From NCBI RefSeq assembly GCF_007752935.1, contig NZ_CP036319.1, positions 5,436,501 through 5,500,500 of the forward strand: a stretch of DNA of 64,000 nt, in the 5' to 3' direction. This document shows positions 1 through 20,566 of this stretch, one piece after another. Under the pieces are notes generated by a model. It searched no databases and was not told the DNA's origin. It worked only from the letters and a program-made list of their open reading frames with translations. Position 1 is the first letter of the stretch. Every line of letters starts with the position of its first letter. This DNA comes from Crateriforma conspicua. GTDB lineage: Bacteria; Planctomycetota; Planctomycetia; Pirellulales; Pirellulaceae. The position numbers were made by a program, and so were the translations under genes.

Positions 1-572
1 ACGTACATCACCAGCACCACGGTGACGATGCCACCGACCACCATCAAAACGATGGGGTAGGTCATGGCACCGGAAACCTTGCCGCGAATCGCATCCTGCT
101 TTTGTAGGAAGCCGGCGACGTGTTGCAACGATTCCTCAAGGAACGCACCTTCCAACCCCGCGCGGACCATGCTGACTACCAATTCGGAAAACACCTTGGG
201 GTGTGCCGCAAGTGCCTCATCCAAGTTCTCTCCATCAGCAACGCGATCACGAACGTCGGCCAAAACATCCGCCATCGTTTCGTCGGCACTCTGTTCGGCC
301 AGAATCGTCAGCGATTCCAACAGCGTGACGCCGCCGTTCAACAAATCGCTTAACTGTGTCAGCGTGTCGGCGATCGTTTCCGCTTTGACCCGCTTGGGCA
401 AATCCAACTTCCATTCGAAGGCCCCGGTTCGGGCGGACCGGTCGATCACTTCGATGGGAAACAAAGCCTGGCGACGTAACAACGCCATCGCTTCGCGGGC
501 GTCACCCGCGATGATCGTTCCGTCGGCGTTGTCACCGCCGGCGGTTTTTGCACGATAAGCGAAATTAGGCAT
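1..572 (-). CDS. gspF: Type II secretion / type IV pilus inner-membrane platform protein GspF (partial, 3' end outside window)
   Basis: Inner-membrane platform protein of a type II secretion or type IV pilus-like machine; it holds the assembly ATPase and the pseudopilins. The visible 190 residues begin MPNFAYRAK and contain the first T2SSF domain, with the family's helical pattern around LLNGGVTLLESLTILAEQ and the segment MVRAGLEGAFLEESLQHVA. The first transmembrane helix follows at about residues 170-190, where the window ends. Full-length GspF is about 400 residues, so roughly half is missing. It lies 60 bp downstream of gspE on the same strand, the classic E-F order, and was probably co-transcribed. 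The identification is firm; whether the machine secretes proteins or builds pili cannot be told from this fragment. Confidence 0.93.
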   Translation of the reverse strand, partial: MPNFAYRAKTAGGDNADGTIIAGDAREAMALLRRQALFPIEVIDRSARTGAFEWKLDLPKRVKAETIADTLTQLSDLLNGGVTLLESLTILAEQSADETMADVLADVRDRVADGENLDEALAAHPKVFSELVVSMVRAGLEGAFLEESLQHVAGFLQKQDAIRGKVSGAMTYPIVLMVVGGIVTVVLVMY

Positions 573-632: not shown

Positions 633-2321
633 TCAGGCGTCGGCTTTGGTGACACGCAAGACTTCATCAATCGATGTGACACCTTGCATGACTTTGTTCC
701 ACCCGTCGTGGCGGAGCGTCTTCATGCCGCCGCGAACGGCGGCTTTCTTGATTTCATTGCTGGCCGCTTGGTTGGTTGCCAAGTCACGGATTTCGTCATT
801 GGCGACCAGCAATTCGTACAGGCCCATCCGGCCGCGATATCCGCTGCCGCGACAGGCCGAACATCCAACGGGACGGTAGACCACCGTGCCGTTTTCCTTG
901 GCCTGCTCATAAGGAAAATCGTCGGGCAAATCCGCTTGGCGACACAGATCGGGTTCGCGACAATCCGGACACAGTTTGCGTACCAACCGCTGCGCCATCA
1001 CGCCTTCGACGGTGCTGCTGACCAGAAACGGTTCGACGCCCATGTCACACAATCGCATGAACGCGCCGGCGGAATCGTTGGTGTGCAGGGTACTGAAAAC
1101 CAAGTGACCCGTTAGCGAAGCCTGTGTGGCGTTTTCGGCGGTTTCCAAGTCGCGAATTTCGCCAACCAGAACGACATCGGGATCGTGCCGCAGGATGCTC
1201 CGCAGGCTGGCCGCAAACGTCAGCCCGACCTTCTTGTGCACTTGGATCTGGTTGATCCCTTCCAGCTGATACTCGATCGGATCTTCGGTGGTGATGATCT
1301 TGGTTTCTTCGTCCTGGATCTCACTGAGCGCGCTGTAAAGCGTCGTTGTTTTTCCCGACCCCGTCGGCCCCGTCACCAAGATGATCCCGTGTGGCAATCG
1401 GATCAATTTTTGAAAGCGTTGATAGACGTCATCGGGCATCCCGATGTCGGCGAGTGAAAACCGCAAATTTTCCTTGTCCAAGACCCGCATGACGATTCCT
1501 TCGCCGTGCAGCATCGGGATGATTGAAACGCGAATGTCGACTTCGCGTCCTTTGACGCGGATCTTGATTCGACCGTCTTGGGGGACACGCTTTTCCGCAA
1601 TGTTCAATCGCGCCATGATTTTCAGCCGGCTGACAATCGCCGACCGAAATTGATTCATCTCCGGCGGTGCCGGTTGACGCTGCAGAACACCATCAATCCG
1701 ATAGCGGATTTTGATGCCTTTTTCTTGAGCCTCGATGTGAATGTCACTGGCGCGTGCTTCGATGGCTTCGCTGAGAATCTCGTTGACCAATCGCACCACG
1801 GAGGCTTGCTGGGCGACTTCCGCATCTTCCAGATCTTGCCCGGTCAACGAATTCAGTTCACCCAAGTCCTCGTCTTTCTGCAGTGCCAGCAAACCGTCGA
1901 TCGTTTCGGCACCCACGCCCAGAAAACGCTTGATCAAATCGCGGACTTGCTCCGGATCACTAACGACCGGTTGGATGATTTGCCCAGTCGCAGCGCTCAA
2001 CGCGTCGATCGCTTGAAAATCGAATGGGTTGCTCAGCGCGACCACCAAAGCGTCCGATTTTTTGGCGATCGGGAACACTTCATAGCGGTGGATCAAACGA
2101 ACGGGAAAGCCTTCGAGTATTTGTTCGTCGATCTCGATGTCGGTCAGGTCCGCCAATTTCAGCCGCATCGAATCGGCGATCGCGCGCAGCAATCCGGATG
2201 CGTCTGCGAACCCAAGTTCGGGCGCGAAGTCCTGTATCGGACGCTGCGATCGAATCGCCTCAGCGGCACTGGCCAGCTGATGCTTGTCCAACCGGCCAGC
2301 GGTGGAAACGTCTTGAGACAT
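633..2321 (-). CDS. gspE: Type II secretion / pilus assembly ATPase GspE (PulE/PilB family)
   Basis: Hexameric cytoplasmic ATPase that powers pseudopilus or pilus assembly. The 562-residue protein has an MshEN-like N-terminal domain (about 20-140), then the ATPase core with a Walker A GPTGSGKTTT near residue 320, an Asp-box segment containing ITTEDPIEYQLEGI, and a Walker B/His box around DPDVVLVGEIRD and GHLVFSTLHTND. A zinc-binding tetracysteine follows, CPDC near 452 and CSAC near 487, typical of GspE. I chose the start at MSQDVS; an in-frame ATG 13 codons upstream adds an atypical basic stretch. It sits between the giant N-domain repeat protein (403 bp upstream) and gspF (60 bp downstream), all on the minus strand. 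Confidence 0.96.
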   Translation of the reverse strand: MSQDVSTAGRLDKHQLASAAEAIRSQRPIQDFAPELGFADASGLLRAIADSMRLKLADLTDIEIDEQILEGFPVRLIHRYEVFPIAKKSDALVVALSNPFDFQAIDALSAATGQIIQPVVSDPEQVRDLIKRFLGVGAETIDGLLALQKDEDLGELNSLTGQDLEDAEVAQQASVVRLVNEILSEAIEARASDIHIEAQEKGIKIRYRIDGVLQRQPAPPEMNQFRSAIVSRLKIMARLNIAEKRVPQDGRIKIRVKGREVDIRVSIIPMLHGEGIVMRVLDKENLRFSLADIGMPDDVYQRFQKLIRLPHGIILVTGPTGSGKTTTLYSALSEIQDEETKIITTEDPIEYQLEGINQIQVHKKVGLTFAASLRSILRHDPDVVLVGEIRDLETAENATQASLTGHLVFSTLHTNDSAGAFMRLCDMGVEPFLVSSTVEGVMAQRLVRKLCPDCREPDLCRQADLPDDFPYEQAKENGTVVYRPVGCSACRGSGYRGRMGLYELLVANDEIRDLATNQAASNEIKKAAVRGGMKTLRHDGWNKVMQGVTSIDEVLRVTKADA

Positions 2322-2724
2322 CGTTCGGTGGGGCCGGCAAAACATGTGCGTCCCTGGCACAGTTTCGCTGTGCGTGGGATCACCCGTCGGGCCGGTCGTT
2401 GGTGGGGTGGGGCACCGTGAAGGCGGGAAAGTTCGTCAACGACGCAATGTCGTGACGGGCCATCCAGACGGTGTAACCGGACGACCAACTGTCAGTATAA
2501 ACGGCCGGCGCCGCCCATGGACATTCCGATTCGTCGGTCGATCCCGATTGGCGGCTTTGGCGAACATGGACAAGCAGACGGACCCACCAAGGGAACACAC
2601 GCATCCACTAAAGACCACCCAAGGCCAAACAAAGCCCCATCGACAGCCAATGACTGCACATGGCCCGTCACCGGGCATGCCGGCTGCGACGCTTTGCCCG
2701 ATTCAATTGGTGATCAACTGCGAA
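2322..2724. other. 403-bp spacer between giant N-domain repeat gene and gspE
   Basis: I see no convincing gene, tRNA or strong intrinsic terminator here. Short open frames on both strands have no recognisable domain or start signal. The spacer is long for an operon, so gspE/gspF may have their own promoter in it, but I cannot point to one. Confidence 0.4.
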
Positions 2725-5700
2725 TCACCTGGCGATGAATTCGCGTAATGCCCGTTCGATGCTGTCAGACTTGGAACGTTTCAGGCGAATGATTTTGACG
2801 TTTCGGTTGCTTTGGTTCAGCGCCCGCTGATCCATGTCCGTCACGAAGGATCGAATCTCATCGCGAAGTTCCGCCGGCGCGCGGACGATCAGTGCATTGG
2901 CCGCCTCGTCCACTTCCAAAGTCAACAATGGCCCCGCCGCAGCGGCGTTCAACTGTTGCAACACCGAAGCCACCGACGCACCGACACCGCGTGGGACCTG
3001 CAGCGGTCGACGCCCACCGGCGGTACTCATCTGCGACCGATACACCGTCCGCAGGATTGTCAAAACACGATCGGCTTGCGTGTTCTCCAAGTTGATGATT
3101 TCGGGCCGATAGACATTCAAAAAGTCCGGCAGCTCATCCGTGTCCAAGACCTCCAACAAATCACCGACGATCTCTCGAGTCCGAGGGCTTCCGTAAACAA
3201 TCAATGCGTTCAATCGTTCGTCCGAAACGACTACGGCATCGGTCAGCCCGCCTCGCATGAACGGCATTTCATCGACCAAGCGTTTCAACAGCATTTCCAT
3301 ATCAATAGCGCCAGAGTTCTGGAGCATGAACACTGCAAAGTTGGTATCGGATGCTTCGGTGCGACCCAGTTGGCTGATCCCACGCAACAGGGTTTCCATA
3401 CGATCCAAAGCATCAGTGTCATCCGAGGAAATCGTGATGCTGTCGGGACCTGGAATGACGACCACATCCGCCAATTCCTCCGGTGCATCCCCCTGTTTCT
3501 CAGACGATGTCCCGGCTTGACCTTGATCGCTTCGTGTCTGTGGCGTGGGCGGGGCAGCACGCAGCGTGTCTTGCTGTGCCACCAGCCGAACGCCTGACAC
3601 CATCCCATCGACGCGTGCGTCGGTTGCAGGATCCATCGTACCGTCGGTTTCGCCTGGATTCTCAGGTGCAAGTTCCTGCTTTGGTGATTCGCCAGGCCAG
3701 GGTACGGCATCGCCACGTCGCTGCTGTGCCGGATAGATGACTTTGATGCGGTTTCCGCGAATCCGTGACCACACCGATTGCACCTGACGCACCGCAGATT
3801 CGGTGTCACCGGCAAACGGAATGCGTCGAGTGGTCCCTGTTCCCAATGCGGTGGCCGCTTTTTCATCGGCGTCCACTTGTTCGCCCAACTTGGTCAGCAA
3901 CGCACGGATTTGGGTCAATTGATCTTCGGTCCCCCGCACAAAGATCTTGTTCGTGCCGTAGTCGGTCGAAACGTACGGCCGGCTGGTCCCGATCAATCCG
4001 GCAAACAGATCGCGAACCGCCATTTCGATCATGTATGGATCGGTGGTTCGCAGTTGAAAGACTTCCAGGATCCGCTCGTCGCCGTCAAGCTTTTGCAGTG
4101 CCTGGGCGATTCGAGAGTGCTGTTGATCCGTCGCGACCACCACCAGCGAATTGCTGGTTCGATTGGCCAGAACCTCGGGACGCGGAACTTCATCTTGGAC
4201 AATCGAGTCGATCGTCGATGCGGCAACCGTCGCGCTGACGTTGGCCAACGGATAAAGCTGAGACGTTTGCGCCGGACGCTGCGGTGGCGGCTGGTCCATC
4301 GCTTGAAGCATTTCATCGATCGCCACCTGATGCTTTGGCATCGCCAGCACAAACAGAGTTTCGTTCGATTCCTGGTAAGTGATGGAATAATCGCGACTGC
4401 GTGCGAACGCCCGAATGACGGAATCTGCGATCGCGTCGGGATCACCGTTTCGAATCGGATAGGCCCGCATGACGGGTTCCTGCCCGGACGCCACATCCAA
4501 TTGACCGATCACTTCGTCGACTTTGGCATGCACGTCATCCGGTGCCGTCACCATGATTGAATTAGACCCCGCGTCGGCGGTGACAGTGGCGGTCGGAGCC
4601 AAGTCTTCGATTGCCTCGGCGACGCTATCAGGATCCGCCAGTGTTAACGGATAGACTTTCAACTTTTTCGTTGACTCGGGAACGTCCAGCGATTGGAACA
4701 TCTCCGCAAAGGTGGATTGATTGCGTGGGGTTGCAACGACGAAAACGGTACTGGTGTCTTCTTGATAGGTGATGTTGAAATCGTTGTTACGGTAAAACGC
4801 GATCGACAAGGATCGTGAAATGGATGTGGGGTCACCGTTGCGAATGGGATAGGCGCGGACCACAGGTTCTTGCCCTGATGCGACATCCAACTGTTCGACG
4901 ACACCACGGACCGCTTCATGGGTGTCATCGGTTCCGGTCACCAACAGTGAATTGGAACCTTCGTCCGCCGACACGATGGCTTCGGGACGAACGTCGGCAA
5001 TGGCATCGGCCACCGAATCGGGATCGGCCAACTTCAGCGGATAGACTTTGAGCTCTTTCTTTCCCTCGGCGACATCCAACGACTCAAACATCTGAGCAAA
5101 GATGGCTTGATAACGCGGCGTCGCGGTCACGAAGATGGTTTCGTTGGCACTCTGATAGGTCACAACGTAGTTACGGTCACGTAGGAACGCTTGCGTTAAC
5201 GCCTGTGAAACCGATGTCGGATCGCCGTTTTTGATCGGATAGGCTTCGACGACTGGCTCTTGGCCGGAAACGACGTCCAACTGTTCGATCAGTTCACCAA
5301 TGACGGCGTGGTCCTCATCGTCTCCGGTGACCAACAACGAACTGGAACCACTGTCGGCGACGACGGTTGCGTCGGAAGCAACGTTGGAAACGGCTCGAGC
5401 AACCGCGGAAGGTTCAGCCAACTGCAAGGGATAGACCTTCAGCACTTTTTTGCTTTCCGGCACATCCATCGCTTCAAACATTTCCGCAAAGATCGCTTGA
5501 TGCTTCGGTGTCGCTGTCACAAAAACCGTCTCGTTCACGGCTTGATAGCTGACGGTGTAATTTGGATTTCGATAGAACGCCAAGGTCAGAGCACGAGAAA
5601 CCGCAGCGGGATCCCCGTTGCGAATGGGGTATGCGTTCAAAACGGGTTCAGTCCCGGAGGCGACGTCCAGCGACTGGATAATCTTTGCAACCGATTCATG

Positions 5701-8700
5701 CGACTGCTCGGTTCCCGTCACCAGCAACGAATTGGAACCTCGGTCGGCGGTGACGACGGCATCTTTTTCCGCGTCACGCACGGCGGTCATGATGGACACC
5801 GCATCGGCCAGTTCCAAAGGATAGACCTTCAGTTCTCGTTTGCTTTCGGGAACATCCAGCGACTGGAACATTTCCGCAAACGTCGCCTGGCTGCGTGGCT
5901 TGGCGATCACGAATAGTGTTTTGCTGGCGTCTTGATAGGTGATCGAATAATCGGGGTTCCGCAGAAAGGCCAGCGAAACGGACCGATAGATCGCCTGAGG
6001 ATCACCATGCCGGATCGGATAGGCTTGGACGACAGGTTGTTGACCAGACACGACGTCCAACTTGTCAATCACCTCGGCGATGCGTTGGTGATCCTTTTCA
6101 AGTGCCGTGACGATCAACGTGGAAGATTCGGGTTCGGGAACGATGGTCGCATCGGTGGCGAATCGCGTCAGGGCTCGGGAAACGGAAGTGGGATCCGCCA
6201 TCTGGAGTGGATAAACGGCGGTTCGGCGACGTTGGGTATCGGGCAATTGCGACACGATCGCCTCGATCGCTTGGCCAATTTCCGCTTGCTGCGCAGGCGT
6301 CCCCCGTGCGACCAGGCTGTTGCTTTCGTTGCTGATCTGGACTGACATCAATCCAACCAGTCGCCGATCCAAAGCCCGGTAAACGGTGTACGCAGCCATC
6401 TTTTCGGGGTCGATCGGATACACGTGAACCAGCGGATCCGGTTCCGGTTTCATCGCTGTTTCAAATGACTCGATCAATGCAACGATTCGTTCGTGTTGCT
6501 GCTCCGATGCCCAGATGGACAGTGCGTCTTCCGATTCGCTGTCGACGAATCGCAACTGGGGAATCTCGTCTTTCAGATGTTCGCGGATCTCTGGCAACAA
6601 ATCCTTGCGGACCGGGTGTTGCCGCAGCACGGACGTTTTTCGGTCTTGGTTGGCCTGACGCAACTGTTCCAACATGGCCTTGATTTGCTCATGTTCCTGT
6701 TCGGTCGCCAAGACCATCAGTTGGTAGTCATCGGATTCCAAAACGGTCGCGTCCGGCAACTGTTCGCGCAGCATACTTTCGGCCGTTTCCACGCTGAAAT
6801 CGGAGATCGGATACACGCCAACCCTTCGGTCCGTGGCATCGCCGCCGAGTTCGGTTCGCAGACGTTCCAGCAAGGCTTCGATCGCATCGTGTTCGTCGGG
6901 AATCGCCCACAGAATCAGCCGATCGTCCGCCTGTGCATCCACCGACCGTGCATCCGGGGCAATGTCGTCCAAGACCTCCGCCGCCAGCGCAATGACTTCC
7001 GGCTTGTCGCGATAAACCCGCAAGACCTGGTCGTCCGATTTCGACGTTTGCTGATTCAATTGATCGAACGCAGTTTGAATCGTCTGGTGATCTTTTTCGC
7101 TTGCCCATACGACCAGATTTTCGCGAGCCTGATCCAGCGAAAACGCCGCATCATCGGCCATGGACTGAAACATGGTGATGGCGGTCGGCCCGATTCGGAC
7201 TGGCAAAGGGTAGGTCCGCAAGCTGAAGTCGGATTTGCCCGTCATTTGGGTGAACTGGTCGATCGCTTCGGCCACGGCCTGATGGTCTTCCTGGTCCGCC
7301 CAAACAAAGATTCGGCTTTCGTCTGGATCGGACGAAATGACCGCAGCGGGAACCAATTGCATCAATACGTTTTCCACCTCTTCTGCTTTCGTGTCGCCCA
7401 GATCGTAGCCCACCACCTTGGACGTTTGGGTCGAACGATTTCCATCGACACGTGCAATCGCTTGCGCAAGTTCCTGATGATCCAGCCCGGTTCCGGATGC
7501 CACCAATTGCTTGCTGTCGGCGTCAACGGTCAATCGCATACGGGGAAACAGAGGCTGTAGCATTCGTAAGACGTTGCTGGGGTTCAACGTTCGAAACGGA
7601 TACGAAACCACGCTTGTTTGACTGGCCTCGTCCGGGTCGGCATCCAATTGCCGAACCAGAGCTTGAATCCGAGGCTGTTGGGACAGCGGTGCGGCAACCA
7701 ACACCCGATTCGATCGTTCGTCGGCGACGATTTTCCATTCGGGCTGCATCCGTGAAAGTAGCTTGACGATGGCATCCGCATCGCCCTTTTCCAACGGATA
7801 AGCGATGGTCACACTGCGATCGGTTGTTGCATCGGCCGACAACTTTTCGATCAGCGATTGAACCTCCGTTTGATCTTCCGCGGTGGCACGCACAATCAAT
7901 CGACCGTTGGCCGAATCCGCGGTCACCACTGCATCGGGCACCAAAGATTGCAAGTTGCGTTGCAGATTGGAAAGGTCTGCGGCGTCGACGGCGTAGGTTT
8001 CCAGCACTGGTTCCCTTCGTGGTGGCAACGCTGCCGCCAGCTTGTCGTATTCTTGACGAACCTTTTCGAATTCCTCTTCCTGTGCCCAGACCGATAACAC
8101 CTCTGTCTGATCGTTGTAAATCATCTCCAACTGCGGGAACCGTTTTCGCAACGAAGCCAACAGTGTTCGGTCATCTTCGACATCCACCGCCAACGTTTGA
8201 ACGGGAATGAGCGCATCGTCGGTTCCCACATCCAACTGTGCCAACAAGCTGGTCAATTCCGCATGTTGACGTTCGCTTCCCCAAGCCGCCATTTCGGTCA
8301 AGCTGGCTTGCGGATTGATCTTCATCGTGGCTAGCGATTCGGGCAGATCGCGTTGGATCATTGCAAATCGATCACGCTGCAATGGACTGATCGGATACAG
8401 CTTCAACTGCCGCGGTGACGCGCCGCCCGCCTGTTCCATTTGGGCCAGTGTTTCGGTGACGCGTTGATGTTCACGCTGGGTCGCAACGACGCTTAACCGG
8501 CCTTCATCGCCCAACCACTCGACAGTGGCATCAGGCACCGCCTTGGTCAACATCGTCAGCATTTGACGGCTGAGCGGTTGCTGTTGCGGATAGAACGCAA
8601 GGGTTCGTTCCAGTGCCGGATCACGCGGGTATTGGTCGATGGTTTCTTTGGCCATCGACAATTCGCTCGAATTACCACGGATGACGATTCGTCCCGGTTG

Positions 8701-10026
8701 CGACAGCACCAGCGCACGTGGAACGACGTCTTGAACCAACGCCGACAACGCATCGGTGGAATCGGGGTCGACTTGGTGGATGGCCACCGCGAGTGCCGAA
8801 TCGTTTCCGCCAGATCCTCCCACGTCCAACCGCTCCAGCGTTGCCTTGACCGCGGTTTGTTGACGTCCATCGCCGACGACCAAAATTCGTTGGTTATCCG
8901 CATCGGCTTTGACCTGGACATCGGGATGCACCAATTGAATTTGTTCGACCAAGTCGTCCAAACGATCCGGATCGACATCGTAAGTTGTCACCGCATCCGC
9001 GTTGTCTCCGGATGCGTTTTCGATCATTTTCTGGATGCTGGCTTCGATACCCTTCTGCATTTCCGGCGTTGCGTGCGCGTGGACTTCGTCGGCATTGGGA
9101 TCAAAGCGAATCTGTGCCGACGAAAACAAGGCCTGCAGCGTTTCCACCGTCGCTTCGCCATCAAGCCCGGGGGCCGGATAGGTTGCAAAGACCGGTTTGG
9201 GTGCTTCTTTCTTTTCCTTGGGTTCAGGCTTTTTGGGTTCCGGGATCGATGCAATCAGGATATTGATCGCACGAAGTTTGCCGGCAGTTTCGGTCACCAA
9301 TAGTTTCTTGGCGGCGGCCATGGGTGTGACTTGGCCGTGCGATCCGACCAATGGCGTGACTTCTTGAACCACCACATCCATTGGACGCGCACCAACGGGA
9401 AACTCGGTCGAAACGATTTCAAACTTTCCACGCTCGGCCAGTTTGTCGACCGGCACTGTCGGCACGATCTCGAAGGGGATTCCGTCGCTGGTGTCGGCAA
9501 GGATCAGCATTTTTTCACGACGGATCAGCGTGTAGTCCTTGCTTAGCAACACACTGTTCAGTAGGTCGATCGCCTCGGTCGGTGTGTAATCATTCGTGTC
9601 GCTGTAGGTGAATTTCCCCGAGGGTTCGTTATCCATCACGAGCGATAGGTCAGCTTGATCGGCAAACCACTGCAGCACGCTGGACCAAGGCTGGCCGCGG
9701 AAGTTGAACTGGATTTTTCCGCTTTGATGAACGTTGTCGAACGCGCCACGTTGTTCGGGTGTCAGCACGGCGGCCAATCGTGCGTTGGAATCTTTGACCA
9801 CGTCATCGCGACGGTCACTGGCGACCTTGACCAATTCACTGACCCGTTGGTCCAAAATTTCGGCGATCTTGGCACGTTGTTGGTCCGTCAGATTCAACCG
9901 ATCGGCATACGTGGGCTGGGCCAAAAGGGAGTAGTCCGTCCCCTGTTGGGCACTGGCATCGGCAATCGTTGCCATGACCACCATCGCGGCCAGGAGCCAT
10001 CGATGCTGCGTTGTTAGTTTTTGCAT
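2725..10026 (-). CDS. Giant exported protein of ~30 secretin N-domain-like modules, no visible secretin barrel
   Basis: A 2433-residue exported protein. Residues 1-27 form a signal peptide ending near ASAQQ. Next comes a helical stretch with two LTxxQ-type motifs (LNLTDQQRAKI and LTPEQRGAF), as in Spy/CpxP proteins. An STN-like domain follows (about 108-175: QFNFRGQPWSSVLQWFADQA). The remainder is a chain of roughly 30 modules, each ending in a pattern like SNSLLVTGTEQSHESVAKII plus a helix and LD, as in secretin N1/N2 (short) domains. A Pro/Gln/Glu-rich linker separates the last three modules. The protein stops without the C-terminal secretin beta-domain. It precedes gspE and gspF on the same strand, which suggests a periplasmic component of that machine. 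The function is inferred; the repeats are visible. Confidence 0.85.
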   Translation of the reverse strand: MQKLTTQHRWLLAAMVVMATIADASAQQGTDYSLLAQPTYADRLNLTDQQRAKIAEILDQRVSELVKVASDRRDDVVKDSNARLAAVLTPEQRGAFDNVHQSGKIQFNFRGQPWSSVLQWFADQADLSLVMDNEPSGKFTYSDTNDYTPTEAIDLLNSVLLSKDYTLIRREKMLILADTSDGIPFEIVPTVPVDKLAERGKFEIVSTEFPVGARPMDVVVQEVTPLVGSHGQVTPMAAAKKLLVTETAGKLRAINILIASIPEPKKPEPKEKKEAPKPVFATYPAPGLDGEATVETLQALFSSAQIRFDPNADEVHAHATPEMQKGIEASIQKMIENASGDNADAVTTYDVDPDRLDDLVEQIQLVHPDVQVKADADNQRILVVGDGRQQTAVKATLERLDVGGSGGNDSALAVAIHQVDPDSTDALSALVQDVVPRALVLSQPGRIVIRGNSSELSMAKETIDQYPRDPALERTLAFYPQQQPLSRQMLTMLTKAVPDATVEWLGDEGRLSVVATQREHQRVTETLAQMEQAGGASPRQLKLYPISPLQRDRFAMIQRDLPESLATMKINPQASLTEMAAWGSERQHAELTSLLAQLDVGTDDALIPVQTLAVDVEDDRTLLASLRKRFPQLEMIYNDQTEVLSVWAQEEEFEKVRQEYDKLAAALPPRREPVLETYAVDAADLSNLQRNLQSLVPDAVVTADSANGRLIVRATAEDQTEVQSLIEKLSADATTDRSVTIAYPLEKGDADAIVKLLSRMQPEWKIVADERSNRVLVAAPLSQQPRIQALVRQLDADPDEASQTSVVSYPFRTLNPSNVLRMLQPLFPRMRLTVDADSKQLVASGTGLDHQELAQAIARVDGNRSTQTSKVVGYDLGDTKAEEVENVLMQLVPAAVISSDPDESRIFVWADQEDHQAVAEAIDQFTQMTGKSDFSLRTYPLPVRIGPTAITMFQSMADDAAFSLDQARENLVVWASEKDHQTIQTAFDQLNQQTSKSDDQVLRVYRDKPEVIALAAEVLDDIAPDARSVDAQADDRLILWAIPDEHDAIEALLERLRTELGGDATDRRVGVYPISDFSVETAESMLREQLPDATVLESDDYQLMVLATEQEHEQIKAMLEQLRQANQDRKTSVLRQHPVRKDLLPEIREHLKDEIPQLRFVDSESEDALSIWASEQQHERIVALIESFETAMKPEPDPLVHVYPIDPEKMAAYTVYRALDRRLVGLMSVQISNESNSLVARGTPAQQAEIGQAIEAIVSQLPDTQRRRTAVYPLQMADPTSVSRALTRFATDATIVPEPESSTLIVTALEKDHQRIAEVIDKLDVVSGQQPVVQAYPIRHGDPQAIYRSVSLAFLRNPDYSITYQDASKTLFVIAKPRSQATFAEMFQSLDVPESKRELKVYPLELADAVSIMTAVRDAEKDAVVTADRGSNSLLVTGTEQSHESVAKIIQSLDVASGTEPVLNAYPIRNGDPAAVSRALTLAFYRNPNYTVSYQAVNETVFVTATPKHQAIFAEMFEAMDVPESKKVLKVYPLQLAEPSAVARAVSNVASDATVVADSGSSSLLVTGDDEDHAVIGELIEQLDVVSGQEPVVEAYPIKNGDPTSVSQALTQAFLRDRNYVVTYQSANETIFVTATPRYQAIFAQMFESLDVAEGKKELKVYPLKLADPDSVADAIADVRPEAIVSADEGSNSLLVTGTDDTHEAVRGVVEQLDVASGQEPVVRAYPIRNGDPTSISRSLSIAFYRNNDFNITYQEDTSTVFVVATPRNQSTFAEMFQSLDVPESTKKLKVYPLTLADPDSVAEAIEDLAPTATVTADAGSNSIMVTAPDDVHAKVDEVIGQLDVASGQEPVMRAYPIRNGDPDAIADSVIRAFARSRDYSITYQESNETLFVLAMPKHQVAIDEMLQAMDQPPPQRPAQTSQLYPLANVSATVAASTIDSIVQDEVPRPEVLANRTSNSLVVVATDQQHSRIAQALQKLDGDERILEVFQLRTTDPYMIEMAVRDLFAGLIGTSRPYVSTDYGTNKIFVRGTEDQLTQIRALLTKLGEQVDADEKAATALGTGTTRRIPFAGDTESAVRQVQSVWSRIRGNRIKVIYPAQQRRGDAVPWPGESPKQELAPENPGETDGTMDPATDARVDGMVSGVRLVAQQDTLRAAPPTPQTRSDQGQAGTSSEKQGDAPEELADVVVIPGPDSITISSDDTDALDRMETLLRGISQLGRTEASDTNFAVFMLQNSGAIDMEMLLKRLVDEMPFMRGGLTDAVVVSDERLNALIVYGSPRTREIVGDLLEVLDTDELPDFLNVYRPEIINLENTQADRVLTILRTVYRSQMSTAGGRRPLQVPRGVGASVASVLQQLNAAAAGPLLTLEVDEAANALIVRAPAELRDEIRSFVTDMDQRALNQSNRNVKIIRLKRSKSDSIERALREFIAR
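4261..6210 (-). repeat. Five tandem 390-bp (130-residue) coding repeats inside the giant protein gene
   Basis: The same landmark, a TATCCGATTCG-like tract encoding AYPIRNGDP (seen on the plus strand as gaatcggatagg), recurs at 4451, 4841, 5231, 5621 and 6011, exactly 390 bp apart each time. Each unit encodes two different N-domain modules, one with DxGSNSLLVTG and one with YQxxNETxFVxATP. The outer edges are approximate. The exact period with diverged sequence indicates past in-frame duplication followed by drift. Confidence 0.85.
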
Positions 10027-13048: not shown

Positions 13049-16000
13049 TCAGGTTTCCCAAGCTTTGAATCGTTGCGTCATGCTTTGCATCGCGGATCGG
13101 TTCTTTTCCAACAAGGCCAACCCGATCAATAGAGCGATCCCCGTTGTGATCCCGAACGCCCACCATGGCCATACCGCGTCCAACGCTTGCCCCGCGTGAT
13201 AGACCATGCTGATCAATGCGACCAACACGAAAATGAATCCAAGCACCAGGAACGAACGCCACCGCAATACCGCGCCCAACAGCATTCCGGCCAGCGCCAA
13301 CAGAATCAACACGATGGGGCCGGCAAGCGTTTCACCAATCCCGACGAAAAGCATGTCGGCGGTACTGCTTAGATAAATCACCAGGATCGCCGTCGAACGA
13401 ATGGCGGCCGATGCCGCGGGATCGCTGTGTTTGCGGTACAGCTGATTAACCACCAGCACGCAAACCGCCGGCGGGATCAGCCAAGCCTGTGGGTGCTGCA
13501 AGAATCCCCACCCGGGAACTTGGATCAGCGAAACCCACAAGGCAAGATTCCCGATCACAATTCCAACGACGCGCGACGAACGCTGTTTCCAAAGGATGGA
13601 CACCGCGATGTAAAACGCCGATGCGATTGCCAGGACGTATTGATAGCGAACGCCCGTTTGCGCCAGCATCCAATTGTCCGCTTGTCCCAACCACTGCAAA
13701 CCCGGCCGGTTGAAACTGAGCCAAAAACCGACAAGTGGAATCAAAGGCAGGAACAAGGCGGTGCGTCGTAGTTCACTTGCCAACACACGGTCACCACGTC
13801 GATTTGCCCATTCGGTCAATCCGACGCTGACAAACGCAAGGACCATCACCATCCATGGCCAATAAGGACGCAATCCAAGGATCGCCCAATCACTGCGGCA
13901 CAAATACAGGTGCCCCCATGTCGCCAGTGCCAACAACTGCGTCGCATCGATGCACATCCGACGCCATCCATCGCTCAGGTGCAAACGTGCGCTCCAACGA
14001 CTGGACATGCCACTGGCCACGCTGGTGATTGCCAGTGCGACGCTAAACAGTCCCAGAACGGCGGCGACCAAGATGATCAGGGCATCCTCCAAAGCTTCAA
14101 TCCCGACGCCCGATTCGTGGATCACGAGCTCCATGATCAGCATTCCGACCAACGACGCGAGAGCGATGCCCAGCGTCCAAATCGATCCACGACGCAGCGT
14201 GGCTTGCCAGTAGTCGGCCATTCGCTGCCCCAGAATCCACGGCAACCACCAGCCGATCATGAAGGTGGCCAATACCATGACCAGGAACGAGCGCATGACA
14301 AACTGCAGTGCCGGCCAAGGCTGATCGGCCGCCTGCAACCATGCAAACATCCCCAACGCCACGATCAACAAGCCCATTCCCAGATCACGCAGGCGTTCCG
14401 ACGCACTCGGCCAAGCCGCCCGTGCCCATTCGGCCAATTCAAATTGGCCGATGACGACCATCGCGATGACACCGATCCCCAACATCGCGGCGAAATCATC
14501 CGACGCATCAATGCCGACCACCGCCGTCCCCATACCGGCGACAGCCAGCAACAGCGCGACCACGCATAACGCGCGAAGGAAACGATGCAGCGCGATGGGA
14601 GGACCTCCCGCCAACGAACGCAGCACCGAAACGGTGTTGCCTGCGATAAACGTCCATACGGTGATTGTGGCGGCCGCGGCAAACAGCGCGATCGGCCACC
14701 CACGGGACATCGGGACATCCAGTGACAGAGTGATGCGAACTGCTGCAGTGAACGCCGACGCGGCCAGCGAAACGACCCACAACAAGGAAGTGGCGCGACG
14801 GCGTGCACGCCGCCCGGCGGTGGCCAGCACCGATGCCACCGATCCGAGCACCAAGACGTCGGCGAAAATATTGGCCGGCCAACGCACTTGGTCCTGAGCC
14901 CCCAAGAGGCTGTAGAACCCCAAAGATCCAATCAAACCGATCCATGGTGCCGCATCGGGCAATCCACCCAACCGCCACGCTCCGCCTGGGCGATCTTTCG
15001 CCGCCAATCGCCAGAACACCAACCAAGTCGACAACCAACCAATCCACGTGGCCACTGTTTCCGTAGGCGTCACCGTATTGCCCAATTGAATTGCCAGGAA
15101 AGGCAATCCGGCGAACACCACCATCCATCCCAAAACACGACCGGCCCCCACCATACTGCGGTTCATTGATGGATCACGGCCGATCGTGGACACGGTCAGA
15201 CCGCCAAGAATCAAGGCGGACAACTCAATGGCGGTCCGTATGTTTTGGATCGCCTGCGTTTGGATCCCCGGGTCGGTGAAGACGGACACCACGAAAATGC
15301 CGACCGACAAAACGATCGCGTGCAACAGGTCAATCACCTGGATTGATGGATCCTGACCACGATTCCAGACGACACGCCCAAGCGACCCGGAACCTGCGAC
15401 CAACAAGACCATCGCCCAGATCACGACCGTCGCTTCCGACATCACCCAGCCTGCATTGGTGGCCCCCGCAGCGCAAACCGCTGCGATTCCGGTCAACATC
15501 AGTGGCCACGGCAGCTCTCCCCAGTGCATCGGTAACGGGTCGGATTTCATAGCGATCCCACGAACGCAGCGGCGATGGATACCGAACCGCCGAATCAATC
15601 GGTCGCCGAATGACCAACAAGCCGCTACCGTCAGGGTCACCATGACCGCCACGGCCGAAGCGAACACGTCAAATGGCCGCCCACCGATCATCAAGACCAT
15701 CGTCGCACCGGCGACGAATACCGCCATCCCCCATACCGAAATCCACAGCACGCTGACAGCCGATGCGATGGAGACATCGGCAACTTTGGATGCACCGCTG
15801 GGGCCGATCATTTGCAGGCTTCGCTTACAGCGTGGCCACCCCAGGACCAACACGAACAGCCATCCCATTGCCGCCAAAGCCACCCACAACGTCAGAGTCA
15901 CCGCATCAGAAATCCTGAAGCAGGGCAGCACCAGCCCCAACGCCATCGGCGGAACCAATAGTGCCGTGGTCAAACCAGAAACAGATCGCCGAAGCACCGA

Positions 16001-18661
16001 GCGTATTCCGCCGATCAAGACGGTCGCCATCAACCACACCGTAAAAACCAGCACCGTCAATCGATCCACGGTAAAGCCAGCGTTCCAAGGTTCCCACCAA
16101 CCTTGCTTCCACAGCAACGGAGCCGTCAGGGCCAGGACGCCGAATGCGGCCACTGCGACGCTGGAAGCCACCTTGGATCGAGATCTGAAGACCCAAGCGA
16201 TTGCACCGGAGATCAATAGGTTCATGCTGCCCGCAACCATCCATTGTCGATCGGGGGCATTGTCGACCGATAGGGCGATGGCGACGGACGCCCAAACCGT
16301 CATCGCCGCGACAAGAGCACCGGAAAGTGTTTCCCACCCATCGGATGTCCGACGTGCCAACGTCCGCCAAGCGACGGTGGCGGCCAAATGCATGATCCAA
16401 ATCACGGCACCCAACAACGTCAATACGATGGCATCGTTGCCGGAGACCGGATGCCCCAAACCGGCCAACATCCTTACCAACCAAACAATGGTCGCCAGGC
16501 ACAGCAACGCGGACGCCACCGTCCAATAGATCTGAATCGACTGGGCTGGAGCCCGATGAACGCGAATTTTCGACGACGTCAAAGACCAACGCTTGACCGG
16601 CAATGACCGCAACGTCTGCCACACGGCGACTCCGGAAAAGATGGCCGCCCAACCGAACAACCCGCGTGTCTGGATGAACGCATCGAAAGTCACCAACCAA
16701 TCAGGCATCCGCGTCACGATCGGCAAGGCCAACGCCACGGTCGCCGTTGTCGGTGCGACCAGTGCCAGTCCCAGTGAACGCCGCTCAAGCGGAGAAACGA
16801 CCGCCGTCATCGCCAAAACCATGGCGATCGACGATGCAGAAATGCCCAGGTGCCAATCAGCAGGTCCCACCAACATCACGACGCCAATCACGCAGGTGGC
16901 GATTTGTGACACGATGCGGACGGGACGAATCCAATCGGTCCATTTTTGATTTGCGAACGCATCGCAAACGGCCAGCCCGATCGCCCAAAGTCCGGTCACC
17001 CAAACCGCCGGCCCGCTGATAAAGCATTGCCATCGCGCCACGCTTTGGAAATCACGGTTGCCCAGCCAAGCGGTCGACGTTGTCACCGACGCAATCCACA
17101 GCGATGCCAGGGCGACGATGGCCATGGAACGAAGATTCATGACCCAGGCCAGGACCGACGCGGAGCCGGCTAACACGATGGCCCATGTCCAAACCAACTC
17201 CACGTCACCGAACGCGGGCACAAACATCACAGCAACAACCAAACATGCGATGCAGATGAATGTATCGGCAACCATGCACAACGGGTTGCTGCGCGAACGT
17301 CGGGCATGGAAGTGAATCACCGATGCCATCGATAGCCAGGCGGGAATCGTGGCCAGCGCCAGCCAGACCAACTCCTTGGCCGTCACGGCATCCGTTTGCC
17401 CGTTCAACAACACGACGACCAAGTACGTCACCAGACAAGCCAGACCGAAAACCCCAAGTCCGATGGCAACCAATCGCCTGGAGAACAATCGCGGACGCAA
17501 ACCACGCTGTGGATCATTGAATTTTGGCTGAACGCGACGTACCCAAGGTTCCCACATCCATGCCGCGGCAACCGCCGATGAAACCAGACCCACAAAAACC
17601 GCCAAGCCCTGTGGCACCAGGGTCGAAGCCACCGTCGGCACCAGAGGAATCATCAGTGTGGGGCCCCACAACGAAAGCGCTGCCGGAACCCCCAGCTTGG
17701 ATCCGAACAAGACCTTGCACGCACGCAGCAACAGCCATCCGTACACACAAGCACCGGCAACCACGGTGGCCAACGTGACCGGGTCGACCAGGGAAACGCC
17801 AGTCCCGTATTCGCCGGTTGCCGCCAAGCCCGCCAGCACGGACAGCGGCACCAATAGACTGGCGATCACCAAGATGGCCCGACTGGTCGCTTGAACTCGC
17901 CAGCGGCTGAAGGTGTAAAAGCCTGCGGCGAATATCGATGCGTTGGCGGCCATGAAGATTAGCGAAGGCACCACACGATGCGTCGCCGTCAGCGTGTGCC
18001 AAAGGCTGACCACCAGCCCGATCGAACACACCACGATCATCGCGCCGGCGACCAGTTCGCCCCATCGGATGTTGCGGGTTGCCATGAACCGGCTGACCGA
18101 TTGCGACAATGTCGTTCCACGATCTGACGTGGCAGCGCCGCCCATCGACGTCACCGCATCGTCGACGACTTGTCCGACGAAGATCCCTGATTCATTCGGC
18201 TGTACCGACGATGGTGCTTCGTCGTCTTGACCGGTCCCCGATGTTTCCCGGACGTCATCGTGTGGCTGGGGATCGAACGATGCTTCGGGATCGAATTTTC
18301 CAACATCGCTGGAATCAGATTCGGGGTCGACCGCTTCTTCTTGCTCGGATGATGCATCGCGATCGGGCACCAGAAACGGCAACGGATCGGGAAAGTGCTC
18401 TTCGGCCAGCCGGATCCACTGATCCCCTTTGCCCTGTTGCAAGACGCCTTTCCATTCCAGGCGGCGAACCACCACGCGAAAATCGACCAGCGGGTCTCGC
18501 TGCACCGGTTCCTGCGGTCGCTTTCGTCCCAGTGGCGTCACCGCGTCGTCATCCGCCCCGCCGATCATCGCACGCAAGATCATGGCACAGATGACCCAGG
18601 CCCCATGGCCCAAAACCATCATGATGAACAGGCCAAGAACGACGACGATGAATACTTTCAT
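13049..18661 (-). CDS. Giant polytopic membrane protein of unknown function (1870 aa)
   Basis: I do not recognise a characterised family. The N-terminus MKVFIVVVLGLFIMM is a membrane helix. A soluble acidic region of about 110 residues follows, including a stretch (FRVVVRRLEWKGVLQQGKG) that may be a small cytosolic domain. From about residue 190 to the end the protein is almost continuous hydrophobic helices, several dozen by eye, with short Arg/Trp-rich loops. The ATG at 18661 is preferred over an upstream extension to 19042, because that extension would run back through the divergent kinase gene. The 171-bp gap to the kinase start is a shared promoter region. Possible roles are transport or sensing; the sequence does not decide between them. 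Confidence 0.85.
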   Translation of the reverse strand: MKVFIVVVLGLFIMMVLGHGAWVICAMILRAMIGGADDDAVTPLGRKRPQEPVQRDPLVDFRVVVRRLEWKGVLQQGKGDQWIRLAEEHFPDPLPFLVPDRDASSEQEEAVDPESDSSDVGKFDPEASFDPQPHDDVRETSGTGQDDEAPSSVQPNESGIFVGQVVDDAVTSMGGAATSDRGTTLSQSVSRFMATRNIRWGELVAGAMIVVCSIGLVVSLWHTLTATHRVVPSLIFMAANASIFAAGFYTFSRWRVQATSRAILVIASLLVPLSVLAGLAATGEYGTGVSLVDPVTLATVVAGACVYGWLLLRACKVLFGSKLGVPAALSLWGPTLMIPLVPTVASTLVPQGLAVFVGLVSSAVAAAWMWEPWVRRVQPKFNDPQRGLRPRLFSRRLVAIGLGVFGLACLVTYLVVVLLNGQTDAVTAKELVWLALATIPAWLSMASVIHFHARRSRSNPLCMVADTFICIACLVVAVMFVPAFGDVELVWTWAIVLAGSASVLAWVMNLRSMAIVALASLWIASVTTSTAWLGNRDFQSVARWQCFISGPAVWVTGLWAIGLAVCDAFANQKWTDWIRPVRIVSQIATCVIGVVMLVGPADWHLGISASSIAMVLAMTAVVSPLERRSLGLALVAPTTATVALALPIVTRMPDWLVTFDAFIQTRGLFGWAAIFSGVAVWQTLRSLPVKRWSLTSSKIRVHRAPAQSIQIYWTVASALLCLATIVWLVRMLAGLGHPVSGNDAIVLTLLGAVIWIMHLAATVAWRTLARRTSDGWETLSGALVAAMTVWASVAIALSVDNAPDRQWMVAGSMNLLISGAIAWVFRSRSKVASSVAVAAFGVLALTAPLLWKQGWWEPWNAGFTVDRLTVLVFTVWLMATVLIGGIRSVLRRSVSGLTTALLVPPMALGLVLPCFRISDAVTLTLWVALAAMGWLFVLVLGWPRCKRSLQMIGPSGASKVADVSIASAVSVLWISVWGMAVFVAGATMVLMIGGRPFDVFASAVAVMVTLTVAACWSFGDRLIRRFGIHRRCVRGIAMKSDPLPMHWGELPWPLMLTGIAAVCAAGATNAGWVMSEATVVIWAMVLLVAGSGSLGRVVWNRGQDPSIQVIDLLHAIVLSVGIFVVSVFTDPGIQTQAIQNIRTAIELSALILGGLTVSTIGRDPSMNRSMVGAGRVLGWMVVFAGLPFLAIQLGNTVTPTETVATWIGWLSTWLVFWRLAAKDRPGGAWRLGGLPDAAPWIGLIGSLGFYSLLGAQDQVRWPANIFADVLVLGSVASVLATAGRRARRRATSLLWVVSLAASAFTAAVRITLSLDVPMSRGWPIALFAAAATITVWTFIAGNTVSVLRSLAGGPPIALHRFLRALCVVALLLAVAGMGTAVVGIDASDDFAAMLGIGVIAMVVIGQFELAEWARAAWPSASERLRDLGMGLLIVALGMFAWLQAADQPWPALQFVMRSFLVMVLATFMIGWWLPWILGQRMADYWQATLRRGSIWTLGIALASLVGMLIMELVIHESGVGIEALEDALIILVAAVLGLFSVALAITSVASGMSSRWSARLHLSDGWRRMCIDATQLLALATWGHLYLCRSDWAILGLRPYWPWMVMVLAFVSVGLTEWANRRGDRVLASELRRTALFLPLIPLVGFWLSFNRPGLQWLGQADNWMLAQTGVRYQYVLAIASAFYIAVSILWKQRSSRVVGIVIGNLALWVSLIQVPGWGFLQHPQAWLIPPAVCVLVVNQLYRKHSDPAASAAIRSTAILVIYLSSTADMLFVGIGETLAGPIVLILLALAGMLLGAVLRWRSFLVLGFIFVLVALISMVYHAGQALDAVWPWWAFGITTGIALLIGLALLEKNRSAMQSMTQRFKAWET

Positions 18662-18832
18662 AGGACGGCTGGGGGTGGGCGGCTGTTCACGACCGATTCT
18701 TTCGGGCTCTGCGATCAACAGAGCCCATTGTGAAACCTGCACCGCGCCACTTTTTCGATGTTCCTCGCCCGCTTGGGGAAAGCCGATGACCGGCCGATCG
18801 AGTGGATCCCGCGAATGACCTAAACTGTGGCG

Positions 18833-20566
18833 ATGACATCCACCGGCCCCGGAACGAACGACGACGCCGATCCGCCACCGACGCTGCCGCCGCGGTCGGA
18901 CGCGCCGGGGAAATCGTTGGAATCGATCATGGCCGATTTCTTGCAGCAGGCTGAAAGCGGTCAGACGCCCGATCCGCAACAGATCTTGCGTCGCTATCCG
19001 CAACATGCCGACGAGCTGCAAAGCTTCTTTGACAATCATCAATGGATGGCCGGGGATCCGGGTGAAACCTGTGACAGTTCACCACCAGCGGGCGTCAACG
19101 TCACCGACGCGGGCGAATTGGTTGGACACCGGGTCGGCCCCTATTGCATCGAAAGCGAAATTGCCCGTGGCGGGATGGGCGTCGTCTATCGGGCACGACA
19201 ATCCGGACTGCAGCGTCCCGTCGCACTGAAACTGATCGGCAGCGGCGTGCTGGCGGGGCCGGAACAGCGGATCCGATTTCGCAACGAAGCCGAGGCGGCC
19301 GCCAATCTGCAACATCCCGGGATCGTGCCGATTCACGAGACCGGTTCTTGGCAGGGCTATGAGTATTTCTCGATGGCCTTGGTCGAAGGCCCGACGCTGC
19401 AATCTTGGGTCCAGCAGACGCGGCAACATATCGACGACGGCGGCGTCCGCGGGCAGAGCTATGAAACATTGGCAGCCGTGGTGCGAGACATCGCCCGCGC
19501 GGTGGCCTATGCGCATGACCACGGGATCGTGCACCGTGACCTGAAGCCGGAAAACATTTTGATGGCGGATGGAAACCGGCCGATGGTGACCGATTTTGGG
19601 CTGGCCAAGTGGCATCGCGAAGGCACGGTGGTCACGCGTACCGGTCAAGTCTTGGGCACCCCCAATTACATGAGCCCCGAACAGGCGGCCGGATTCAGCG
19701 ACGGTGATTGTCGCGTCGATGTGTACGCCTTGGGGGCGATTCTTTATGCGTTGCTTTGTGGGCGCCCGCCGCACGAAGGACCGGCTGTTGCGGAGGTTTT
19801 GCGCAGTGTGCTGCAAGACGAACCAATCGCGCCCCGTCAAATCTGTCGTGACGTTCCGCCGGACTTGGAAATCGTTTGTTCGACCGCAATGCGGTTCGCG
19901 CCCGACGATCGTTACGAATCCGCCACCGCGATGGCCGACGACCTGGATCGTTTCTTACAAGGCGAAACCTTGGTGGCCCATCACAGCGGCATCGTCGATG
20001 TGGTGACTCGCGAACTGCGACGTGATCAACACGGTGAAGCGTTTCAACGCTGGGGAGGTCCGCTGCAACTGATCGGTCACATCGTGCTGACGGCACACGT
20101 GATCATTTTCGCACTCCAGCAGTATGGTTGGCCGCGTTGGTGGTCCGTGTGGCTGCCAAGGCTGATGATGTTGGGCGCTATTTTGGGGGTGATCCACTGG
20201 GCACGCGGCGGCGCGTTGATGCCACGAACCGCCGCGGAGCGTCCGCTGTGGTCGATCTGGCTGGGCTACTTGGCGGCACTAGGCATGATCAACCTGTTGA
20301 TGATCTTTGGCGGCGTGGACCCCGGCGGCCTGTTTCCCATTGCCGCGGCGATGAGCGGGTTCGGTTTCATGGCCATGGGCGGCCACGTCTGGGGCGTGTC
20401 CGCGGCGTTGGGGATCTCGTTCCTGGTGGTCGCTGCGTTGAACGCATGGATTCCGTCGGCGGCACCCCTGATATTCGGCGGCATGTGGTGGATCGCCTTG
20501 GCGGTTCTGGGACGGCGCTATCGCGGGCACCAGCCTCAGGATTCCTCTTCCCTAATCGATTCGTGA
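18833..20566 (+). CDS. Membrane-anchored Ser/Thr protein kinase (PknB-like)
   Basis: Hanks-type kinase of 577 residues. The first 100 residues include a planctomycete-style preface (MADFLQQAESGQTPDPQQ and ILRRYPQHADELQSFF). The kinase domain spans about 103-372, with glycine loop EIARGGMGVVYRAR, the VALKLIG lysine, catalytic loop IVHRDLKPENI near 230, DFGLAKW, and APE-like MSPEQAAG. The C-terminal 160 residues hold several hydrophobic helices (LIGHIVLTAHVIIFALQ onward), so the kinase is tethered through its C-terminus with no extracellular sensor visible. All key catalytic residues are present. An alternative GTG start lies two codons upstream at 18827. It is divergent from the giant membrane protein, a possible but unproven functional partner. 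Confidence 0.95.
   Translation: MTSTGPGTNDDADPPPTLPPRSDAPGKSLESIMADFLQQAESGQTPDPQQILRRYPQHADELQSFFDNHQWMAGDPGETCDSSPPAGVNVTDAGELVGHRVGPYCIESEIARGGMGVVYRARQSGLQRPVALKLIGSGVLAGPEQRIRFRNEAEAAANLQHPGIVPIHETGSWQGYEYFSMALVEGPTLQSWVQQTRQHIDDGGVRGQSYETLAAVVRDIARAVAYAHDHGIVHRDLKPENILMADGNRPMVTDFGLAKWHREGTVVTRTGQVLGTPNYMSPEQAAGFSDGDCRVDVYALGAILYALLCGRPPHEGPAVAEVLRSVLQDEPIAPRQICRDVPPDLEIVCSTAMRFAPDDRYESATAMADDLDRFLQGETLVAHHSGIVDVVTRELRRDQHGEAFQRWGGPLQLIGHIVLTAHVIIFALQQYGWPRWWSVWLPRLMMLGAILGVIHWARGGALMPRTAAERPLWSIWLGYLAALGMINLLMIFGGVDPGGLFPIAAAMSGFGFMAMGGHVWGVSAALGISFLVVAALNAWIPSAAPLIFGGMWWIALAVLGRRYRGHQPQDSSSLIDS

Follow-up and report, generated by a model that had tools for sequence, protein, structure and literature searches.

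What is a protein of 2433 amino acids, built mainly of secretin N-domain modules and with no secretin barrel of its own, doing at the head of a type II secretion system (T2SS) operon? We examined this question in Crateriforma conspicua, in a 64,000-nt stretch of its genome (the whole stretch is referred to here as the window; the host genome is G000), and found that the chain probably forms the N-terminal, periplasmic part of a T2SS secretin encoded in two pieces, its module array having expanded in tandem and the GspD of the same operon being the barrel half.

The chain protein and its modules

An earlier note on this DNA had placed an exported chain of 2433 residues at positions 2725–10026, counted approximately 30 secretin N-domain modules in it and found no barrel; all of this was borne out, and the gene, whose strand had not been stated, lies on the minus strand. 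The chain gene has the following features:

2725..10026, minus strand: barrel-less chain, 2433 aa (signal peptide, LTXXQ-like segment, N0, ~31 N1-type modules, half-module)
9949..10026, minus strand: signal-peptide-like start, residues 1–26 (by eye, a hydrophobic stretch and then A-S-A)
9733..9909, minus strand: LTXXQ-like segment, residues ~40–98 by eye (the Pfam match covers residues 40–60)
9487..9714, minus strand: GspD-type N0 domain, residues 105–180
9241..9417, minus strand: first N1-type module past N0, residues 204–262 (from sequence and model)
3877..9186, minus strand: array of 27 N1-type modules, residues 281–2050 (25 of the 27 at i-E < 1e−3)
4285..6234, minus strand: five two-module units, residues 1265–1914 (tandem expansion)
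2728..3837, minus strand: conserved C-terminal (CT) module, residues 2064–2433 (an insert-bearing module, two modules and a half-module)

The Pfam family Secretin_N matched the chain with an E-value of 1.4e−152, in 17 stretches at E ≤ 0.01, and a purpose-built module profile recovered 27 chain modules at i-E < 1e−3, against a best i-E of 0.0069 among 20 shuffles of the chain protein used as the control. Three weak stretches lay in register at residues 209–264 (i-E 0.07), 415–455 (0.18), and 614–665 (0.0013); the first two did not outscore the shuffles at the sequence level and fold as beta-alpha-beta-beta-alpha in the model, and the third is outside both structure models. One further module carries a long disordered insert (residues ~2066–2222), which brings the chain to approximately 31 N1-type modules, one N0 domain, and a terminal half-module. 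The LTXXQ-like segment matched PF07813 (E-value 1.5e−4) at 22.9 bits, just below the cut-off of 24.3, and the Pfam score of the N0 domain was also under its family cut-off, a point against reading the chain as part of a secretin. Against NCBIfam TIGR02517, the chain scored 303.4 bits, short of the cut-off of 351.35. The chain therefore has the N0 domain and the beta-alpha-beta-beta-alpha N1-type modules of a GspD, but because neither a barrel query nor a Pfam scan found the C-terminal PF00263 barrel in the same protein, we do not file it as GspD by itself.

The earlier note had proposed structure prediction as a check. AF2 models of the two chain ends showed secretin folds with beta-alpha-beta-beta-alpha modules, and the best fold matches of both ends were GspD/PulD (by Foldseek and VIA-align for the N-terminal model, and by Foldseek against solved structures for the C-terminal model). 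The models have pTM values of 0.39 and 0.26 and leave the spatial order of the modules open, and the whole-chain TM-scores against known secretins were at most 0.25 of the query; these low values count against the split-secretin reading.

When the gene was compared with its counterpart in the same-genus genome G001, dN/dS was 0.077 for the whole chain gene, 0.012 for N0N1, 0.032 for the youngest repeats, and 0.329 for the disordered insert; the whole-gene value indicates that the gene is under selection. The missing barrel might suggest a broken or decaying secretin gene without function. Given the values for the whole gene, N0N1, and the youngest repeats, the equal length of the chain in the same-genus genome, and the lack of a barrel match in all 54 complete related frames among the best 80 of 137 relatives, such decay has a negligible probability, and we regard it as refuted by constraint and conservation.

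The operon and its GspD

The chain gene heads a T2SS operon lying on one strand, in which it is followed by gspE, gspF, gspG, gspH, I, J, K, L, M, GspD, and a lipoprotein-like gene. The co-oriented gspE and gspF reported previously are present, gspE lying downstream of the chain gene at a distance of 364 bases:

633..2360, minus strand: gspE (TIGR02533, 631.3 bits against a cut-off of 630.25; PF00437, 1.3e−141)
1..572, minus strand: 5′ part of gspF, which runs out of the window (407-aa ORF, G000:C1:5435849-5437072)
L020:1972-3063, minus strand: 363-aa lipoprotein-like gene after GspD

Curated cut-offs were reached by GspE, GspG, GspF, GspH, and the GspD barrel (for gspF, by PF00482 in the part within L020 and in the G001 copy). 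GspI, GspJ, GspK, and GspM gave matches below cut-off, and GspL, with no family match, owes its name to its position between K and M. GspC (PF11356) had no match at E ≤ 0.1 in the whole host genome; as a control, the same model had matches in 3 of 14 genomes.

The separate barrel gene that the earlier note had suggested seeking elsewhere in the genome was found just beyond the window edge, still within this operon. It encodes a GspD of approximately 1160 aa that follows gspM, 10.6 kb downstream, and has its own N-modules and a barrel (G000:C1:5425447-5425965, E-value 4e−43). The N0 profile detected no N0 in this GspD, which was also below the TIGR02517 cut-off (339.4 vs 351.35 bits). The 363-aa lipoprotein-like gene follows GspD or a fused secretin in a number of relatives; its product gave no informative Pfam or NCBIfam match, and a pilotin-like role is possible.

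Seven frames of the host genome had a barrel above cut-off and four had N0N1, with no frame in both sets. The four are the window chain and three barrel-less, N0-bearing paralogues, L022:8254-11571 (minus strand), L023:8252-11389 (plus strand), and L024:8931-11915 (minus strand), of which L023 lies directly before a second gspE and gspF. At L025:7061-11935 (minus strand), a relative of the 363-aa lipoprotein comes after a 1322-aa barrel secretin, and no other queried T2SS protein was recognised in the 19 kb around it. The T2SSE ATPase family PF00437 had 14 matches in the host genome, and several type IV filament-like machines are therefore likely. Elsewhere in the window, a 1997-codon frame at 13049–19042 (minus strand) looks by eye like a very large many-pass membrane protein, with no Pfam match at E ≤ 0.01.

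One-piece homologues of the chain and GspD

Among 79 genomes of the class, N0N1 was found in 55 and the barrel (PF00263) in 78. N0 and PF00263 occurred in one frame of 1893–3269 aa in at least 16 of the 79 genomes (13 of f21, two of f24, and one of f22), among the matches listed, for which the N0N1 and PF00263 tables were joined by eye via place and frame length. All eight fused proteins that were fetched contained PF00263 and had the same order: one N0, modules, the CT module, a GspD-type stretch, and the barrel. Their best CT matches scored 79–129 bits, and positions 345–461 of the GspD N-terminal profile fell between CT and barrel in all eight (13.7–33.2 bits). Both profiles include general module likeness, which weighs against the split-secretin reading: in split GspDs the full CT profile reached up to 57.3 bits, and in L025 it reached 72.5; in the fused proteins, matches of the GspD N-terminal profile scatter both before and after CT. 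The insert-bearing CT front scored 7.0–55.4 bits in the eight fused proteins (L152 being lowest, at 7.0) and at most 2.4 bits in 14 split GspDs. At E ≤ 10, the N0 profile found no match in any of 14 split-type GspD frames (L054 and L092 being the same contig). In the fused consensus, a Gly-rich stretch after the half-module marks the point where the window chain stops, and most of the 12 short chains inspected have a Gly-rich tail at the corresponding point. A recognised gspM lay just before the secretin in seven of the eight fused loci, and the lipoprotein just after it in four; the place of the fused secretin is that of GspD in the split operon.

Three features of a split secretin were present: a barrel-less part with N0, an N0-less barrel part in the same cluster (the operon's own GspD), and a one-piece homologue in the same order. 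The chain's N0 domain, its barrel partner in the same operon, and the fused homologues make the front half of a secretin the preferred reading. Judging from sequence, it is a probable Rosetta-stone case, the chain being the front and the operon GspD the back of one secretin. The periplasmic scaffold proposed in the earlier note is partly supported, in that the folds, operon, and gspE linkage favour an extended periplasmic component of a T2SS-type machine; with N0 and a barrel partner in the same operon, it is more probably a secretin front half. A one-piece secretin of 3240 aa at L155:4835-14557 (plus strand) has 22–23 N1-type modules and a barrel, and its array apparently expanded independently.

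In at least 15 f20 genomes, among the matches listed, a barrel frame (1318–1491 aa) carries its own, weaker N0, and the same genomes have another N0 frame without a listed barrel; in the pair that we read, L161:4305-8303 (minus strand) and L162:7472-11194 (minus strand), N0 is on both the barrel protein and the chain. The f20 chain is better described as a paralogue than as a half, which counts against a split secretin, and the window chain could therefore be an accessory ring, namely a GspD paralogue of ancient origin, since deprived of its barrel, that surrounds the pseudopilus or platform as an independent periplasmic collar or scaffold, for example replacing GspC, and does not continue the GspD channel. 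The same could be claimed of the window operon had its GspD lost N0 otherwise. Such a ring would agree with the lack of GspC in the host genome and with its three further barrel-less N0 paralogues, one of them beside the second gspE/gspF pair, but not with the one-piece homologues that hold both parts in the same order or with the absence of N0 from the 14 tested GspD frames of split-form genomes, and we consider it unlikely.

Growth of the module array

The modules have a median period of 66 aa (55 chains). Ten of them, at residues 1270–1854 within the five two-module units, are more like one another than like any homologue outside the genus, and the closest matches of the other 17 array modules are in other genera, in 15 cases in L072, L074, or L075; the same-genus genome was left out of this comparison. 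Since the chain has an identical length in that genome, the unit duplications predate the split from it. The repeats of the tandem expansion are under strong constraint (dN/dS 0.032).

The number of modules in complete long chains ranged from 15 to 46, with many values between. This variation bears on the idea of a lateral array, in which neighbouring modules of a single chain are arranged laterally and complete a ring or coil within that molecule, so that a few chains replace many subunits. Approximately 30 modules are twice the 15 subunits given for GspD (PMC10128026), and the AF2 models, with their open module order, would accommodate such an arrangement; a number that varies so widely, and a fused giant that keeps a barrel on each chain, make it quite improbable.

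Distribution and linkage among relatives

At 1e−10, the chain had a match in 34 of 40 genomes, a count that includes its own. With an N0-N1 profile (A1, 20 rows), the best 80 of 137 relatives were kept, and 79 of the 80 titles name planctomycete taxa, the other only "bacterium"; the family and genus names in them we take to be planctomycete, that of Thermoguttaceae having been checked. Near-duplicate genomes were dropped by eye (45 of 49 sequences were kept in A2 and 31 of 36 in A3, and A4 was likewise thinned). Contig ends truncate 26 of the 80 survey frames; these show no barrel either, and the barrel-free count rests on the 54 complete frames; none of the 54 matched the barrel of the operon GspD as query at E ≤ 1e−4. 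They comprise 27 long frames (1590–2851 aa, ≥13 modules) and 27 short ones (444–1692 aa), and separately fetched chains reached 3749 aa and 46 modules. Across 20 long chains (19 of the 27 complete long survey frames and P0001), 20 families had at least one match, and PF00263 was none of them. In f19, N0N1 matched none of 19 genomes; a 2316-aa barrel frame in one of these genomes, L160:5008-11958 (plus strand), has no recognisable N0 or N1 modules.

Linkage with gspE across relatives, another check named in the earlier note, was seen at 12 of 21 testable long-chain loci, where a co-oriented gspE lay no more than 4 kb downstream, and at 2 of 21 short loci (loci with at least 3.5 kb downstream were counted). 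In the fetched flanks, no T2SS gene was recognised at 11 of the 27 long loci and at 20 of the 27 short ones. The 11 long loci, as well as the rarity of a nearby gspE among short chains, are points against a split secretin, and the unaccompanied loci of both kinds would suit a repeat protein with a binding role at the cell surface or in the periplasm and no part in secretion. That the chain sits in a T2SS operon here and in part of its relatives, carries an N0 domain, and has fused forms renders such a protein very improbable.

In a quick, unrooted N0N1 tree (78 rows, with SH-aLRT as the only support measure and with long branches for L022, L155, and L166), all 34 long rows fell within one 36-row set (SH-aLRT 99), and a single set, likewise at 99, held the seven ordinary fused rows. 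The separate position of the fused giant L155, at the end of a long branch, suggests that expansion happened a second time. With an unrooted tree, the one-piece form of canonical GspD is the sole argument on fission versus fusion. Within the long clade, two rows classed as "short", L077 and L079, may be broken frames.

Proposed mechanism and comparison with known systems

If the chain and GspD are two halves of one secretin, the chain would oligomerise like canonical secretin N-domains, ring on ring, and its C-terminal end would meet the N-terminal modules of GspD. Together they would form a long pipe around the pseudopilus, able to extend to an inner membrane lying well away from the outer one, and the length of the pipe would change through duplication of two-module units. 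The front part would have been relocated to the operon head, with GspD keeping the original place. We infer, as the earlier note did, that the chain spans an enlarged periplasm, and stacked rings are our favoured mechanism; by our estimate, the chain alone would measure ~80–120 nm if its modules stack like those of Thermus PilQ. Cryo-tomography of crateriform structures revealed press-stud-like contacts of both membranes with pilus-like fibres attached (PMC5394234), and the portions of the published literature available to us gave no molecular identity for them. A pipe of chain and GspD, tens of nanometres to ~100 nm long and pinning the inner to the outer membrane, might be the basis of these structures, a rather unlikely conjecture that becomes testable through one gene.

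The secretins described so far are channels of one protein with few stacked rings; here, what appears to be the periplasmic part is a separate protein of 15–46 modules. If true, these would be among the longest protein-export channels known, a concrete planctomycete candidate for crossing an enlarged periplasm. The channel was apparently cut in two and lengthened in one lineage, and a one-piece form apparently expanded separately, which gives a natural length series for asking how a channel matches the width of the periplasm. Open-licence papers on planctomycete GspD or secretins, split or barrel-less secretins, and extra N-domains did not yield this architecture, nor was a split bacterial T2SS secretin with ~30 modules found reported in that literature. 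Within the literature searched, the combination of a split in a bacterial T2SS with an N-domain array five times the longest that we found described is new.

In its canonical form, GspD carries N0 to N3 on a single polypeptide (PMC10128026). The chain resembles GspD/PulD in its N0-N1 order, folds, and operon, with the barrel half in the same operon, and differs in that two proteins are involved, with ~31 N1-type modules in the barrel-less one. The split secretin RhcC1/RhcC2 of the T3SS of rhizobia and some Pseudomonas syringae (PMC3574062, PMC3973906) likewise has its N-terminal and barrel parts in two genes; it belongs to a T3SS rather than a T2SS, and the available parts of these papers mention no large module array. 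In the mitochondrial T2SS, GspD is barrel-only and the N-domains are on separate proteins, GspDN1-3, called short sequences (PMC10128026); The barrel-only GspD with its separate N-domain proteins is the likeness; the differences are that the system is eukaryotic and the N-domain proteins are short. The earlier note held that known secretins have 2 to 4 N-domains, a range that is too narrow, as PilQ of Thermus thermophilus has six rings, N0–N5, in a 350-Å complex with an exceptionally long tail, and its authors related the number of rings to a wide periplasm (PMC5745081). PilQ resembles the favoured mechanism in placing extra N-rings across a wide periplasm, and differs in having six rings, on one polypeptide, in a type IV pilus.
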